Of a stretch of 39,987 nucleotides of DNA, positions 33,039-38,322 are shown piece after piece. Source of the stretch: Natronohydrobacter sp. (GTDB lineage Bacteria; Pseudomonadota; Alphaproteobacteria; Rhodobacterales; Rhodobacteraceae); contig JAFIEM010000021.1 of NCBI GenBank assembly GCA_020832555.1, forward strand, positions 1 to 39,987, read 5' to 3'. The stretch's first letter is position 1. Each line of letters starts with the position of its first letter. A program made the position numbers and the translations under genes. The notes under the pieces were generated by a model. It saw only the letters and a list, made by a program, of their open reading frames with translations, did no database searches and was not told where the DNA came from.

Positions 33039-34361
33039 ATGTCCGATCTTGAACATCTCACAGCAAGCCGCAGGGGCTTTCTGGGCCTTGCCGGGGCGGG
33101 CGGCGCGGCTTTGGCTTTCGGTGCGGGGACCGCGCAGGCGCAGAAGGTGCGCACATCCGCACGCATCCTGATCCTTGGGGCCGGGGCAGGCGGGGCGGCG
33201 ATTGCCAACCGTCTGGCCGACCGGCTGGAGGGGGCGCAGATCACGGTTCTCGATGGCAAGCAGGAGCATTGGTATCAGCCGGGTTTCACGCTGATCGCGG
33301 CCGGGCTGAAACCGGCCAGTTATTCGGTGTCGTCGCTGACCGGCTGGTTGCCGCGCAACATCACCTTCGTCAATGATTACGCCGCCGAACTGGACCCGGA
33401 AGCCAACCGTGTGACCACGACCGGCGGGCAGCGGATCGAGTATGATTACCTGATCGTTTCGACCGGGGTGGTGCTGGACTGGGACGCGATCGAAGGCTTT
33501 GACCTGAGCATGGTTGGCCCGGAGAACGGCATCGGCGCGCAATATGCAGGCCCCGACTACGCCGCGAAAACCTGGGCCGCGATAGACCGCTTCACGAATG
33601 AGGGCGGCGTGGGCCTGTTCGGACGTCCCGAGACCGAGATGAAATGCGCGGGCGCGCCGGTGAAGATCACCTTCCTGGCCGAGGACATTGCCACCACCAA
33701 AGGCAATCGTGGCAAATGCGAATTCATCTACACGACGCCGGGCGGGGCGCTGTTCGGGGTGCCGGTGATCCATCACCGGGTCCGTCAGATCATGGATGAG
33801 CGCAATATCACCTATAACTACCGCTGGACGCTGAAAAGCATCGACCCGTCCGCCAAGACTGCGACCTTCGAGACACCGGATTTCGTCGAAACGCTCGATT
33901 GGGATTTCATCAACGTCATCCCGCCCCAGCGCGCGCCCAAGGTGATCATGGAGTCAGGGCTTTCGTGGGAAGATCGCTGGGTCGGCGAGGGCTGGATTGA
34001 GGTCGATCCGCAAACCCTGCGCCATGCCCGCTATCCCAATGTCTTTGGCATCGGCGATATTGCCGGGGTGCCCAAGGGCAAGACAGCGGCCTCGGTCAAA
34101 TGGCATCTGCCGGTGGTCGAGGATCACCTGATCTCGGAAATCGCCGGGCGCGAAGGGACGCGGACATTCGACGGCTACACCTCCTGCCCGCTGATCACCC
34201 GTGTGGGTCGCGCGATGCTGGTCGAGTTCGACTACAAGGACAATCTGGTGCCGTCCTTCCCCGGTCTGATCGCGCCCTTGGAAGAGCTGTGGATTTCTTG
34301 GTTGATGAAGGAAGTCGCGCTGAAAGCCACCTATAATGCCATGCTGCGCGGTCGCGCCTGA
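33039..34361 (+). CDS. sqr: Sulfide:quinone oxidoreductase, type II
   Basis: A 440-residue FAD enzyme. The N-terminus carries a Tat-like motif ('ASRRGFLGLAGAGGAAL', Arg11-Arg12). It is followed by the FAD motif GAGAGG (47-52), the redox cysteines Cys203 ('MKCAGAP') and Cys383 ('GYTSCPLIT'), and 'YPNVFGIGDIAG'. These match the SQOR/type II group, to which the human enzyme belongs. It oxidises sulfide and reduces quinone at the membrane; the Tat-like motif would place it on the periplasmic face. GGGAG precedes the ATG. It is divergent from the NsrR-like gene behind FNR-type boxes and followed by a DUF5368 membrane protein. Confidence 0.94.
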   Translation: MSDLEHLTASRRGFLGLAGAGGAALAFGAGTAQAQKVRTSARILILGAGAGGAAIANRLADRLEGAQITVLDGKQEHWYQPGFTLIAAGLKPASYSVSSLTGWLPRNITFVNDYAAELDPEANRVTTTGGQRIEYDYLIVSTGVVLDWDAIEGFDLSMVGPENGIGAQYAGPDYAAKTWAAIDRFTNEGGVGLFGRPETEMKCAGAPVKITFLAEDIATTKGNRGKCEFIYTTPGGALFGVPVIHHRVRQIMDERNITYNYRWTLKSIDPSAKTATFETPDFVETLDWDFINVIPPQRAPKVIMESGLSWEDRWVGEGWIEVDPQTLRHARYPNVFGIGDIAGVPKGKTAASVKWHLPVVEDHLISEIAGREGTRTFDGYTSCPLITRVGRAMLVEFDYKDNLVPSFPGLIAPLEELWISWLMKEVALKATYNAMLRGRA

Positions 34362-34370
34362 GACATAGCG

Positions 34371-34420
34371 CCGGGGGCTGCCGCCCCCGGACCCCTGCGG
34401 ATATTTGGGCAAGAATGAAA
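34371..34420 (+). repeat. Dispersed intergenic repeat, copy B
   Basis: A perfect hairpin CCGGGGGC-TGCC-GCCCCCGG (34371-34390), a CCCC tract, and a tag ATATTTGGGCAAGAATGAAA (34401-34420). The tag matches the reverse complement of copy A (14244-14263) in 19 of 20 bases. It lies 10 bases after the sqr stop and may end transcription. Confidence 0.75.
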
Positions 34421-34447
34421 ACACTGGCCCGGTGAAAGGATACGACA

Positions 34448-34804
34448 ATGGAAGAATTCAGCCTGATGACACTTCTGGCCGTGTTCGAGGAAATGTTCGG
34501 GCGCGGCTTGTTCTGGACGATGGTGGCCGTTGCGGTCGCGATCACGTCTGCCTATGCGTTTGTGCTGATCCGTGACCGGTCCATGTCGATGCGCAAATTC
34601 CTGCTCGCGCAACTGTCCATGCCCTTTGGCGGTGCTGCGGCGGTCTGGTTCGTGATGATGATGACCAATTCCGGCTTTCGTGACATTGGCGGGCCGATCG
34701 ACTGGATCGTGCTCTTGGGCGTTTTCGTCGCAGGCGCGATTGGCTTTGCGATCCTCGTCTATGTGGTGCAATCGCTGATGCGCGGCAAATCTGCCGAAGC
34801 GTGA
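34448..34804 (+). CDS. DUF5368 family membrane protein
   Basis: A 118-residue inner-membrane protein with about three helices ('LFWTMVAVAVAITSAYAFVLI', 'PFGGAAAVWFVMMMT', 'IDWIVLLGVFVAGAIGFAILVYVVQSL'). The 'AVFEEMFGRGLFWTMV' start and 'KFLLAQLSMPFGGA' are features I associate with DUF5368. It follows sqr in the same direction, separated by the dispersed repeat, and may support sulfide oxidation or quinone-linked electron flow. Its function is unknown. A strong terminator follows. Confidence 0.83.
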   Translation: MEEFSLMTLLAVFEEMFGRGLFWTMVAVAVAITSAYAFVLIRDRSMSMRKFLLAQLSMPFGGAAAVWFVMMMTNSGFRDIGGPIDWIVLLGVFVAGAIGFAILVYVVQSLMRGKSAEA

Positions 34805-34858
34805 CGCGCCCGGAACAGGGCGGCGGCTGCTCCTCCCGGTATCACGCCGCCCTTGTCT

Positions 34859-34897
34859 GCCCGTGCCCTTCCTCCCGAGGGCGCGGGCTTATCTTTT
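34859..34897 (+). terminator. Intrinsic terminator after DUF5368 gene
   Basis: GCCCGTGCCCT pairs with AGGGCGCGGGC (11 pairs, one G-U) around an eight-base loop. It is followed by TTATCTTTT. It isolates the cysS transcription unit from sqr. Confidence 0.85.
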
Positions 34898-34901
34898 GCG
34901 C

Positions 34902-34931
34902 TTGGCAGGGCGCGGGATTTGCGGTTAGTGT
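34902..34931 (+). promoter_or_regulatory. Candidate promoter of cysS leader
   Basis: TTGGCA (34902-34907) is a fair -35. With an 18-base spacer, TAGTGT (34926-34931) is a weak -10, giving a start near 34938, immediately before the leader peptide ATG at 34939. The leader peptide would then be translated from a nearly leaderless mRNA. Confidence 0.4.
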
Positions 34932-34938
34932 CGCGCGC

Positions 34939-34983
34939 ATGAAAACCTTGACCTGCATCATCCCCTGCTGCATTTGCCGCTGA
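34939..34983 (+). CDS. Cys-rich leader peptide of cysS (14 aa)
   Basis: The 14-codon frame encodes MKTLTCIIPCCICR with Cys at 6, 10, 11 and 13, all TGC. It begins right after the predicted transcription start and lacks a Shine-Dalgarno, as expected for leaderless translation. It ends inside the 5' arm of a hairpin (34977-34995). Such a cluster of the cognate amino acid directly upstream of its tRNA synthetase is the mark of ribosome-mediated attenuation. The peptide itself probably has no function. The frame is open upstream to 34801, but that would cross a terminator. Confidence 0.6.
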   Translation: MKTLTCIIPCCICR

Positions 34984-35039
34984 GTTTCTCGGCGGTTGGT
35001 CTTTTGGCATTCTCTTCTGTCTGACAGCACCTTCCGCCG
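34977..35039 (+). promoter_or_regulatory. Predicted attenuator with two competing hairpins upstream of cysS
   Basis: Hairpin A: CCGCTGAG (34977-34984, containing the leader stop codon), TTT loop, CTCGGCGG (34988-34995), followed by TTGGTCTTTT. Hairpin B: CGGCGG (34990-34995) with CCGCCG (35034-35039), extended by GGT/ACC across a symmetric TT/TT internal loop. They share bases and exclude each other. A ribosome stalled at the Cys codons would cover the 5' arm of A and favour B and cysS expression. Prediction by eye. Confidence 0.45.
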
Positions 35040-35063
35040 GGCCATTGCCCTGACGAGGACGCC

Positions 35064-36542
35064 ATGACCGAGATCCGCCTGCACAATTCCCGCACCCGCC
35101 GGAAAGAGCCGTTTGCGCCCATCGACGCGGAAAACGTGCGGATGTATGTCTGTGGCCCCACGGTCTATGACCGCGCGCATTTGGGCAATGCGCGCCCTGT
35201 GGTGGTGTTCGATGTGCTCTATCGGTTGCTGCGCCATGTCTATGGCGAGGCCCATGTGACCTATGTGCGCAATTTCACCGATGTCGATGACAAGATCAAC
35301 GCGCGGGCGCGGGCGATGCAGGAAGCGGGGGATGCCCGCTCGCTGAATGACATCATCCGCGCGCTAACCGATGAGACGATCGACTGGTATCATGCCGATA
35401 TGGATGCTTTGGGGGCGTTGCGGCCCGACCACGAGCCGCGCGCGACCGAGTTCATCGTGCAGATGGTGGCTATGATCGAAGGGCTGATCGCGAAGGGCCA
35501 TGCCTATGCGGCGGAAGGCCATGTGCTGTTCGATGTGCGCAGCTACCCCGATTATGGCAAGCTCTCGGGCCGGTCGGTCGATGACATGATCGCCGGCGCG
35601 CGGGTCGAGGTGGCACCCTACAAGCGTGATCCGATGGATTTCGTCTTGTGGAAGCCCTCGTCGGCGGAGGAACCCGGCTGGGACTCGCCTTGGGGCCGGG
35701 GGCGTCCGGGTTGGCATATTGAATGTTCGGCTATGAGCCACGAATTGCTGGGGCCTGCCTTTGACATTCACGGCGGGGGCATCGACCTGCAATTCCCGCA
35801 CCACGAGAACGAGATCGCGCAGAGCTGCTGTGCGCACCCGGAGGCGGATTTCGCGAATTTCTGGCTGCACAATGAGATGGTGCAGGTTGAGGGGAAGAAG
35901 ATGTCCAAGAGCTTGGGCAATTTCTTCACGGTGCGGGATTTGCTGGATCAGGGCTGGCCGGGAGAGGTGATCCGCTTCGTGATGCTGTCCACGCATTACC
36001 GCAAGCCGATGGACTGGACGGAGGAGAAGGCGCGGGAGGCATCGGAAAAATTACGGTCCTATGCGCGCGTTTTGTTAACGTCGCACTTAAGTTTCACTGA
36101 AAGCAATTTTGCGCTTTATCGAAAGCACGAAGCATATAAGCCCGACTCCTCTGTGGTCGCAGCATTGTCGGATGACCTTAACTCCCATTTGGCCATCACC
36201 CATGTTGACGCTTTGGTAAAGCGCGCAAAAGCAGGTGACACGCTTGCAACAAACTCTCTTCTTGGAAGCCTGATGCTTCTTGGGTTTTTCGAAGATCTCG
36301 CTTCTATTGCGCGTTTCGGTGGACCAGAAGCAACCCTTATGGATGAATACCCGTTCGAAGAGCTTGCATCACGTTTGTCGCTCTTGCGTAAGGGGGCAAT
36401 GCAAAACAAGGATTTCACCGCTGTAGACGATCTCAAGAGAGCATTGCTCGAAGCCGGTGTGGAAGTGCGGATGAGCAAAACTGATGTTTCTCTTTCTCCC
36501 GGCCCTAACTTCGACCCCGCTAAACTGGAAGAATTGAAATGA
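35064..36542 (+). CDS. cysS: Cysteinyl-tRNA synthetase
   Basis: A 492-residue class I synthetase charging tRNA-Cys. HIGH motif variant 'HLGN' (39-42), KMSKS (279-283), and zinc ligands Cys30, Cys221, His246 and Glu250 are all present, so the catalytic domain is intact. GAGGAC precedes the ATG. From about residue 328 (base 36045) to the stop the DNA becomes markedly AT-richer with different codon choice (more AAA, TTA, CTT, GCA), while length and frame are kept. The C-terminal helical tRNA-binding part may thus come from recombination. It is preceded by a Cys-rich leader peptide and hairpins suggesting attenuation. Confidence 0.96.
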
Positions 36543-36693: not shown

Positions 36694-38322
36694 ATGACCC
36701 GCACCCGCCTCACCCTCTACGACACCACACTCCGCGACGGCCAGCAGACGCAGGGCGTGCAATTCTCGACCGCGGAAAAGCACCAGATTGCGGCCATGCT
36801 CGATACACTCGGCATCGACTATATCGAAGGCGGCTGGCCCGGCGCGAACCCCACCGACTCCGAGTTCTTCGCCGCCAAACCGCAGACCAGGGCCACGCTG
36901 ACCGCTTTCGGCATGACCAAGCGCGCGGGCCGGTCGGCGGAGAATGACGATGTGCTGGCCGCCGTCCTGAACGCAGGGACCAAAGCGGTCTGTCTGGTCG
37001 GCAAGACGCATGATTTCCACGTCACCACCGCGCTGGGCATCACGCTTGACGACAATCTCGACAACATCAAAGCCTCGATCCGCCATTGCGTCGCGCAGGG
37101 CCGCGAGGCGCATTTCGACGCCGAGCATTTCTTCGATGGCTACAAGGCGAACCCCGACTATGCCCTGCAAGCCCTCCACGCGGCCCATGATGCAGGCGCG
37201 GCTTGGGTGATCCTGTGCGATACCAATGGCGGCACCTTGCCAAGTGAAATCCGCGCGATCACGGAAGCCGTCATAAAAAGCGGCATCCCCGGCGAGAAAC
37301 TGGGCATCCATTGCCATGATGACACGGGCCAGGCGGTGGCCTGTTCGCTGGCCGCTGTGGAAGCCGGTGCGCGCCAGATTCAAGGCACGCTGAACGGGCT
37401 GGGGGAGCGCTGCGGCAATGCCTCGCTGACCACGATCATCCCGACGCTGCTGCTGAAACCCGCCTATGCGGACCGGTTTGAAACCGGGGTGACGCCGGAC
37501 GCGCTCACGCAACTCCTGAAAATCTCGCGCAAGCTCGATGATATCCTGAACCGCGTGCCCCTGCGCTCGCTGCCCTATGTCGGCGCCTCGGCCTTCGCGC
37601 ACAAGGCGGGGTTGCACGCGAGTGCGATCCTGAAAGACCCGACCACTTACGAGCATATCGACCCCGCGCAGGTCGGCAATGCCCGCATCGTGCCGATGTC
37701 CAATCAGGCGGGGCAATCGAACCTGCGGATGCGGCTTGCGGATATGGGCGTTGTGGTCGCCAAGGATGACCCGCGCCTTGGTGCGATCCTTGAGGATGTG
37801 AAGGCGCGCGAGGATCAGGGCTATGCTTACGACTCTGCGCAGGCCAGTTTCGAGTTGCTCGCACGGCGCGCGCTGGGGCAGGTGCCGGAGTTTTTCGAGG
37901 TCAAACGCTACCGCGTGACCGTCGAGCGGCGCAAGAACAAGTATAACGAGATGGTCACGCTCTCGGAGGCGGTAGTCGTGGTCAAGATCGGGGATGAGAA
38001 GAAGCTCTCTGTCTCCGAATCGATGGATGCAGCAGGCCATGATCGCGGCCCGGTCAATGCGCTGTCCAAGGCGCTGGCCAAGGATCTCGGCCCCTATCAG
38101 GCCGCGATTGATAATATGAAACTGGTCGATTTCAAGGTCCGCATCACCCAAGGCGGGACCGAAGCCGTCACCCGCGTCATCATCGATAGCGAGGACGGGC
38201 AGGGGCGGCGCTGGTCCACTGTGGGGGTTTCGCCCAACATAGTGGACGCGAGTTTCGAGGCGCTGCTCGATGCCGTGAACTGGAAATTCCTGCGCGATGG
38301 AGTAAGCCCATGTCGGACCTGA
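36694..38322 (+). CDS. cimA: Citramalate synthase
   Basis: A 542-residue enzyme of the HMGL/isopropylmalate-synthase family condensing pyruvate and acetyl-CoA to (R)-citramalate, a threonine-independent entry to isoleucine. The barrel starts 'YDTTLRDGQQ' (9-18), has 'GIDYIEGGWPGANPTD' typical of CimA, the metal site 'GIHCHDDTG' and 'LNGLGERCGNASL'. It ends in a LeuA-type regulatory domain that gives feedback control. No ribosome binding site stronger than GAGG is seen. Its stop lies 13 bases inside the following methyltransferase gene. Confidence 0.94.
   Translation: MTRTRLTLYDTTLRDGQQTQGVQFSTAEKHQIAAMLDTLGIDYIEGGWPGANPTDSEFFAAKPQTRATLTAFGMTKRAGRSAENDDVLAAVLNAGTKAVCLVGKTHDFHVTTALGITLDDNLDNIKASIRHCVAQGREAHFDAEHFFDGYKANPDYALQALHAAHDAGAAWVILCDTNGGTLPSEIRAITEAVIKSGIPGEKLGIHCHDDTGQAVACSLAAVEAGARQIQGTLNGLGERCGNASLTTIIPTLLLKPAYADRFETGVTPDALTQLLKISRKLDDILNRVPLRSLPYVGASAFAHKAGLHASAILKDPTTYEHIDPAQVGNARIVPMSNQAGQSNLRMRLADMGVVVAKDDPRLGAILEDVKAREDQGYAYDSAQASFELLARRALGQVPEFFEVKRYRVTVERRKNKYNEMVTLSEAVVVVKIGDEKKLSVSESMDAAGHDRGPVNALSKALAKDLGPYQAAIDNMKLVDFKVRITQGGTEAVTRVIIDSEDGQGRRWSTVGVSPNIVDASFEALLDAVNWKFLRDGVSPCRT

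Follow-up and report, generated by a model that had tools for sequence, protein, structure and literature searches.

A Probable Ribosome-Mediated Attenuator with a Cysteine-Rich Leader Upstream of cysS in Natronohydrobacter and Its Alphaproteobacterial Relatives

Introduction

The closest described system is uORFC-8-2, a motif with 145 reported examples, all of them upstream of Rhodobacterales cysS genes, which its authors read as ribosome-mediated attenuation (Brewer et al. 2021; PMC8632094). In the section of that survey devoted to it, the motif is an AUG-initiated uORF whose tandem cysteine codons usually occupy codons 14–15; it has two prominent stems, the first of which contains the Cys codons, and a U run at the 3′ end, while a three-stem junction is said to be rare and without covariation (PMC8632094). 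We found no other use of the name uORFC-8-2 in the open-license papers searched, and no other description of an alphaproteobacterial cysS leader among the matches listed there. Related arrangements have been described farther away. Mycobacteria have leaderless polycysteine short ORFs (Canestrari et al. 2020), which, as presented in passages of PMC9031893 and PMC9094748, carry contiguous Cys codons and mediate cysteine-responsive attenuation. Actinobacterial cys operons and cbs have short leader ORFs in which Cys codons form runs close to the stop, according to the relevant part of PMC1262725. The trpL/rnTrpL leader of Sinorhizobium meliloti, in the portion of PMC7298713 that concerns us, encodes a 14 amino acid peptide on an RNA that begins at the ATG and is subject to ribosome-dependent attenuation.

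Here we analyze the region upstream of cysS in Natronohydrobacter sp. (contig JAFIEM010000021.1 of assembly GCA_020832555.1). The window is the whole stretch of 39,987 nucleotides that was analyzed. A sequence-only reading of it, which proposed a cysteine attenuator at this gene, knew of no description for an alphaproteobacterial cysS; Brewer et al. (2021) in fact propose the same for Rhodobacterales cysS (PMC8632094). The present work is an independent in silico test of a regulator for which our literature searches turned up a single section of a motif survey.

Results

The Leader and Its Surroundings

All elements from the upstream terminator through cysS lie on the forward strand. The cysS gene (35064–36542) encodes a cysteine–tRNA ligase, identified by a match to profile TIGR00435 (438.6 bits; cut-off 340), and it is preceded by a Shine-Dalgarno-like GAGGA at 35055–35059. 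A leader peptide ORF of 14 codons, MKTLTCIIPCCICR, runs from 34939 to 34983, with its ATG at 34939–34941 and its TGA stop at 34981–34983, and 80 bases separate this stop from the cysS ATG at 35064. Its four Cys codons are all TGC (codons 6, 10, 11, and 13, at 34954–34956, 34966–34968, 34969–34971, and 34975–34977). The upstream unit is closed by an intrinsic terminator at 34859–34888, with a 12-pair stem and the tail TTATCTTTTG. The sequence-only reading had described both this frame, with its four TGC codons 80 bases before cysS, and a strong upstream terminator, and it was correct in both.

Two other genes of the neighborhood may be mentioned. A gene for a Tat-signal flavoprotein (33039–34361), resembling sulfide:quinone reductases at a score below the model cut-off, lies two genes 5′ of cysS, and a citramalate synthase gene is found 3′ of cysS, at 36694.

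We also considered known regulatory RNAs. Five Rfam matches were obtained in 34400–35400 at E up to 5, none of them a T-box, and no Rfam family matched the element; a T-box or another known riboswitch was thus rejected. The best of the five, ar14 at 34788–34893 (27.9 bits compared with a gathering threshold of 58.8; E 0.0047), lies 5′ of the element, over the upstream terminator, and is probably a chance match.

Conservation of the Cysteine Leader

We compared 110 cysS upstream regions from the window's family, the window included. The same-genus loci come from 25 of 36 genomes, the window's own among them; the loci outside the genus are the best 87 places among the matches listed from 292 genomes searched, and because these places were taken best first, the sample is tilted to closer relatives. 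Loci at contig ends (L006 and L010), in duplicate copies of sampled genomes (L033 and L034), and from other families (L027–L031) were excluded from this count. Separately, L210 is truncated by the end of its contig.

A Cys-rich short ORF, defined as an ATG-initiated frame of 8–25 codons with at least two Cys among the last ten, is present in 99 of the 110 upstream regions versus 4.2% of shuffled ones. A stricter form (12–16 codons with two Cys among the last eight and the stop between −130 and −60) is found in 93 of 110 versus 0.31% in shuffles; since the family loci share ancestry, these shuffle counts are not probabilities. An earlier automatic pass with other limits detected the leader in 96 of 110. 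Inspection of its 14 misses by eye revealed a leader in six (four of them with a single Cys) and none in eight, so that 8 of the 110 family upstream regions have no leader by the automatic test and inspection by eye. In genus g31, four loci (L052, L054, L055, L072) are without a leader, and on visual inspection a different frame appears to terminate there a short distance 5′ of cysS; a further member, L084, retains a one-Cys leader. Second, remoter CysS-like genes occur in two relatives (G033:C75, G033:C87, and G021:C4), with 53–57% identity over most of the protein.

The leader statistics and the promoter profile given below rest on 101 chosen leaders. These are the 96 automatic ones minus L083, which was dropped for its length of 10 codons and may be real, plus the six added by eye (L037, L084, L089, L098, L100, and L118). 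Selected as ORFs, they range from 11 to 19 codons in length and contain a mean of 3.1 Cys codons, versus 0.37 in shuffled leaders. TGC is strongly preferred over TGT (302 codons versus 12). Cys codons stand in tandem in 75 of the 101 leaders, and the commonest positions, counted from the stop, are −5 (80 leaders) and −4 (76).

In the close clade, which comprises 23 leaders including that of the window, Cys occupies codon 10 in 22, codon 11 in all 23, and codon 13 in 21. The sequence-only reading had named, as its check, conservation of the Cys codons, the stop, and both hairpins among relatives while the flanks drift. The alignment bears this out for hairpin A and its alternative pairing, for the leader stop, and for three of the four Cys codons, with drift at other codons; the exception is codon 6, which is Cys in just 14 of the 23 leaders. 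Together with the shuffles, this conservation rules out chance or artefact as the origin of the leader, and we regard the presence of a Cys leader upstream of cysS as confirmed.

A Predicted Leaderless Start

An alignment of the 101 chosen family leaders on their start codons shows TTGGC most often at −36 to −32, a T/A peak at −13/−12, and C at −1 in 91 leaders. In the window we assign a probable −35 hexamer, TTGGCA (34902–34907), and a probable −10 hexamer, TAGTGT (34926–34931), from the sequence and this family profile; the latter is off consensus, and the former is placed one base farther from the ATG than the family position. Transcription would then likely start at the leader ATG or one base 5′ of it, making the message leaderless. 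A sigma-70 consensus scan of 34500–35300 returned no promoter-like site and picked out neither TTGGCA nor TAGTGT. Across the window's family, the promoter-like hexamers at a near-fixed distance suggest a leaderless leader ORF.

RNA Folding of the Leader

The leader RNA can be folded as follows. In P1, GACC at 34950–34953 (leader codons 4–5) pairs with GGTC at 34998–35001, and in P2, TGCA at 34954–34957 pairs with 34969–34972; these two stems surround the Cys codons. Hairpin A (P3; 34976–34996), which we propose as the OFF hairpin, has nine pairs (34976–34984 with 34988–34996), and its 5′ arm contains the leader stop, as the sequence-only reading had noted. It is followed by TGGTCTTTT. The 3′ strand of P1 begins one base after hairpin A and lies immediately 5′ of a U run, UUUU, at 35002–35005. 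The 3′ arm of hairpin A belongs to segment 3 (34990–35000), which is also the 5′ side of an alternative hairpin B. The 3′ side of hairpin B is segment 4 (35029–35039), composed of ACC (35029–35031) and CCGCCG (35034–35039). The pairing of 34990–34995 with 35034–35039, already seen in the sequence-only reading, can be extended by three pairs between 34998–35000 and 35029–35031. Because hairpins A and B share segment 3, they are mutually exclusive in silico, and one of them is accompanied by a U tract. Taken by itself, the window folds only slightly better than shuffled sequences do (z = −1.5; 15 of 200 shuffles equal it). This fold and the promoter and terminator scans of the window are weak, and the support for the element comes from relatives.

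P1 is the best covarying stem. Averaged over the 101 loci, the P1 duplex reaches −10.1 kcal/mol with its own partner versus −7.5 kcal/mol with partners taken from other loci, and 90 loci favor their own partner. In the 23 close-clade sequences 98.9% of P1 cells are paired and three of the four pairs are invariant. The first paired base of P1 falls inside the start codon (nucleotides 1–3) in 75 of the 101 family loci and in 12 of the 23 of the close clade; P1 in the window starts at nucleotide 8, so that the start codon lies outside it. P2 is paired in 80% of close-clade cells, with no change on both sides of a pair.

Could the element be conserved purely as an RNA structure, with no regulatory peptide, the TGC triplets serving P2 pairing and the frame being incidental? 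The pairing of TGCA with TGCA in P2 would fit such a reading, as would TTGACC, in the region of codons 4–5, whose invariance in the close clade indicates a constraint on nucleotides. However, Cys codons are kept at positions that differ from leader to leader, at the mean count of 3.1 versus 0.37 in shuffles and in leaders of different lengths; P2 fails to pair in one of five close-clade cells; and leaders of another order, described below, retain Cys codons amid different sequence. We consider a purely structural role very improbable.

Hairpin A is conserved with little covariation. Its own partner beats foreign partners in only 43 of the 101 loci (18 of 23 in the close clade), and its covariation score was matched by 63 of 500 shuffles. 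For hairpin B, the duplex with its own partner averages −16.5 kcal/mol versus −15.2 kcal/mol with foreign ones, and the own partner is better in 76 of 101 loci. In alignment A2 (75 loci, from which the near copies L043, L051, and L060 are excluded), 91.6% of hairpin B cells are paired and 32 cells are changed on both sides; none of 500 shuffles comes up to hairpin B in paired percentage, in the number of such doubly changed cells, or in covariation score, whereas 52 and 5 shuffles, respectively, match it in number of pairs and number of pair types. Partners slid along the same alignment gave 32%–60% paired. At the variable outer position of hairpin B, 55 of 73 loci (the 75 minus L104 and L118) form a pair versus 31.6 expected from shuffles, a count that none of 20,000 shuffles attained. 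In the close clade 87% of hairpin B cells are paired; there, no pair is changed on both sides, no measure exceeds the shuffles, and three slid controls exceed hairpin B in covariation score. Hairpin B thus covaries in the wider family and not in the close clade; because these loci, too, are related by descent, the shuffle counts given for the stems do not amount to probabilities.

The position of hairpin B brings up translational control, in which the choice between A and B would open or close the Shine-Dalgarno site of cysS rather than terminate the transcript. Segment 4 lies just 5′ of that site, hairpin B is conserved though it is made after the U run, and the fold of the window pairs 35005–35014 with the Shine-Dalgarno region. 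When segment 3 was scrambled, the region became slightly less open (0.391 versus 0.407; lower in 59 of 101 loci; p-value 0.03). Against this reading, the presence or absence of segment 3 makes no difference to the computed accessibility of the region (0.407 versus 0.406; higher in 60 of 101 loci; p-value 0.14), and for the window the B state has the lower accessibility (0.24 versus 0.35). A Shine-Dalgarno switch was rejected as a candidate, since accessibility is equal in both states and only scrambling of segment 3 has a small effect; we think translational control of this kind unlikely.

A Putative Termination Signal

A terminator scan of the window found three terminator-like sites where 1.3 are expected, which is barely above chance, and the U run of the window is short (UUUU, then GG). 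Over the 101 loci the T fraction in the 20 nucleotides after hairpin A is 0.42, versus 0.12 after segment 4, and T content is higher after hairpin A in 97 loci; the T runs themselves are short, the longest one after hairpin A having 3 or 4 residues in 75 of the 101 loci and fewer than 3 in 21. Since the U-rich tract follows A and not B, it is A that looks like the terminator; and since segment 4 is made after the U run, hairpin B cannot itself decide termination there.

A different route to termination would be through Rho, acting in the pyrimidine-rich stretch 35007–35035 once the ribosome leaves the leader and exposes it, with hairpins A and B only tuning the outcome. The stretch is indeed rich in C and U, the intrinsic terminator is weak, and part of PMC1262725 proposes Rho for actinobacterial Cys leaders that have no terminators. 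Yet the U-rich tract immediately after hairpin A is a feature of the family, and we judge Rho-dependent termination to be improbable here.

A separate observation concerns the segment 4 region, 20–45 nucleotides after hairpin A (e.g., L064, L088, and L111). TTTCC-like and TAAG-like patterns both matched there in 60 of the 101 loci, and in 42 of these 60 they are exactly 23 nucleotides apart. We considered a second promoter in segment 4, for which this spacing would be suitable; the hexamers are poor, the −35 being without its G and the −10 without its last T.

A Proposed Mechanism for cysS Attenuation

We consider it quite likely that the element is a ribosome-mediated attenuator of cysS belonging to the published uORFC-8-2 kind. 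The short U run, the promoter and terminator scans of the window, the scant covariation of hairpin A, the behavior of hairpin B in the close clade, the position of segment 4 after the U run, and the eight family loci without a leader speak against it. From the sequence features above we infer the start of transcription, translation of the leader, termination, the order of events, and the response to cysteine. The RNA would begin at or beside the ATG, and the 14-codon leader would be translated without a Shine-Dalgarno sequence, close behind RNA polymerase. When charged tRNA-Cys is plentiful, the ribosome would pass the Cys codons and leave at the stop; after its exit P1, which involves the early codons, and hairpin A, which involves the last codons and the stop, could form before the U run, and transcription would end. 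When charged tRNA-Cys is scarce, the ribosome would wait at codon 10, 11, or 13 and cover the 5′ arm of hairpin A, so that hairpin A would be blocked, the polymerase would read through, and CysS would rise. The freed 3′ arm would, in our own reading, pair with segment 4 to give hairpin B and thereby prevent hairpin A from refolding. Where P1 extends into the start codon, as it does in many relatives, it might in addition halt further leaderless initiation on a finished leader.

The spacing of the codons agrees with this scheme. The conserved Cys codons 10, 11, and 13 of the window start 10, 7, and 1 nucleotides before hairpin A. A ribosome occupies a footprint of mRNA that extends beyond the codon being read, and at any of these three codons a waiting ribosome would cover the 5′ arm at least partly. 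The sequence-only reading had proposed that low charged tRNA-Cys stalls the ribosome, blocks hairpin A, and raises CysS, a proposal that is supported in silico and fits both the Cys spacing and the U tract after A.

Leaders Outside Rhodobacterales

Is the leader confined to the window's family? We built a covariance model, R1, from the 75 wider-family leaders. In the window's genome it gives one strong match, and the next (E 0.19) has no adjoining cysS. Matches were obtained in 8 of 289 genomes of the class. The leader was found in all five family genomes, one of which is in the model; in one genome of another family a leader before cysS was matched (L131, MSNAHTIFICPIICR), and two matches (L132, L133) have no adjoining cysS.

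The simple ORF test, applied outside the family, was positive at 10 of 34 and 15 of 60 loci, each versus approximately 3% in shuffles. Several of these candidates overlap an upstream reading frame; the one overlapped at L029 is presumably the end of gltX. With overlaps removed, a candidate is kept in 10 of 58 families (93 loci). The leaders of families f4 (3 of 3 loci), f108 (2 of 2; 3 of 3 with one added), and f91 (2 of 2) look real, and others may be due to chance. The short Cys ORFs before cysS in f108 (L167, L195, L304–L306), f4 (L136, L137, L143), and f91 (L163, L170) have different sequences (e.g., MKTAATIWCICCTIIIS), and the f4 leaders are longer, with 21–25 codons, and end in CCCA, CCA, or CRCA. 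Perhaps the Cys ORFs of other families are separate inventions.

We also inspected 80 named cysS loci, gammaproteobacteria included. A non-overlapping Cys-rich short ORF is present in 23, only an overlapping one in 10, and none in 47; a few of the 23 (L270, L287, L290, L298) look like chance. The automatic test was positive in Devosia sp. Leaf420, two Mesorhizobium, Ensifer adhaerens, and Martelella radicis. By eye we found a leader in Rhizobium sp. BK196 and R. leguminosarum, both excluded by the automatic test for an overlapping frame, and a single-Cys leader in Phyllobacterium, Stappia, and Roseibium. Ensifer and Devosia belong to Hyphomicrobiales by taxonomy look-up, and we take Mesorhizobium, Martelella, Rhizobium, Phyllobacterium, Stappia, and Roseibium to belong there as well. 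With cysS leaders in Hyphomicrobiales, the motif is not exclusive to Rhodobacterales.

A second covariance model, R2, was built from 10 Hyphomicrobiales loci and two f108 loci. It matches 69 of 150 genomes of Ensifer's order (the Ensifer genome itself being in the model), at one place each. Among the places viewed with their flanks, 29 of 30 lie directly before cysS and have a short ORF, with at least two Cys in 23 and one Cys in six. Two matches (L308, L309) are without cysS, and at L335 the cysS match is in the wrong place. R2 also detects a leader of the window's family (E 0.002). Over 35 loci outside the family, which include R2 sequences, the own partner is better in 27 for P1 and likewise in 27 for hairpin B, and the first paired base of P1 is at nucleotides 1–3 in 29. 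T makes up 33% of the sequence after A versus 22% after segment 4, and is higher after A in 31 of the 35.

These leaders raise the question of polarity. In the E. coli trp leader the roles are reversed, and by analogy a stall at Cys codons would leave hairpin A free to keep its 3′ arm, while hairpin B would be the OFF hairpin, forming with the ribosome on the stop. Among the 35 Hyphomicrobiales and f108 leaders, all from outside the family, 15 have their last Cys codon 15–16 nucleotides before hairpin A, approximately where a stalled ribosome ends, and a ribosome stalled there might therefore leave A free; some leaders (L304, L310, L311, L314) also have a T run after segment 4. In the window, by contrast, none of the conserved Cys codons starts more than 10 nucleotides before A, and the U-rich tract after A and not B holds in nearly all family loci. 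For the window we regard reversed polarity as doubtful and retain A as the OFF hairpin, although which hairpin is OFF may differ between orders.

Discussion

It is tempting to go one step further, to a view that we hold only tentatively and think less probable than its negation. The published Rhodobacterales motif could be one branch of an old alphaproteobacterial cysS attenuator common to at least Hyphomicrobiales, with an RNA that starts at the leader start codon. In most members the terminating fold would pair the first codons, start codon included, so that a leaderless ribosome would read the leader essentially once before it is locked, and on a stall segment 4 would capture the freed 3′ arm. 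The distance from the Cys codons to hairpin A would have shifted between the orders, and the ON and OFF roles of the hairpins may have been swapped.

If the attenuator is real, alphaproteobacteria would adjust the expression of a tRNA ligase to how fully its cognate tRNA is charged, and would do so with no T-box (none was found at the window's gene); in many relatives a single fold of the RNA may terminate transcription and at the same time occlude a leaderless start codon. The Hyphomicrobiales leaders, which include those of Rhizobium and Ensifer, would make the regulator accessible in strains with good genetics.

How does the locus compare with described systems? It has the sequence features of a trp-type attenuator, namely a leader rich in codons for the regulated amino acid and, in silico, exclusive hairpins of which one has a U tract. 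The mycobacterial polycysteine ORFs reportedly precede operons of cysteine supply. They are leaderless, as the window's leader is predicted to be, and like it have contiguous Cys codons, as far as the passages on them in PMC9031893 and PMC9094748 go; the window differs in its phylum, in preceding a tRNA ligase gene, and in having a conserved hairpin with a U-rich tract. The actinobacterial leaders with Cys runs, as treated in the relevant part of PMC1262725, stand before cys operons and cbs and have no conserved terminator hairpin, whereas the window's leader stands before cysS. With S. meliloti trpL the window shares a 14-codon leader, an alphaproteobacterial host, and a putative start at the ATG; in the portion of PMC7298713 considered here, trpL has Trp codons before trpE(G), and its peptide and RNA act in trans.

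The closest likeness is to uORFC-8-2, with which, by the section on it in PMC8632094, the window has in common a short ORF with tandem TGC directly 5′ of cysS, a Rhodobacterales host, stems, a 3′ U run, and the logic of control that is proposed. The tandem Cys codons of the window are at codons 10–11, unlike the usual 14–15 of that section, and the stem formed by the early codons covaries in the family here, unlike in the published account. Hairpin B and the leaderless start are added here and do not appear in what that section says of uORFC-8-2, and its statement that the motif is exclusive to Rhodobacterales is contradicted by the Hyphomicrobiales leaders. On these computed grounds the window's leader appears to be a further example of the described element, to which our analysis adds a spread beyond Rhodobacterales, a probable leaderless start, and a covarying hairpin B.
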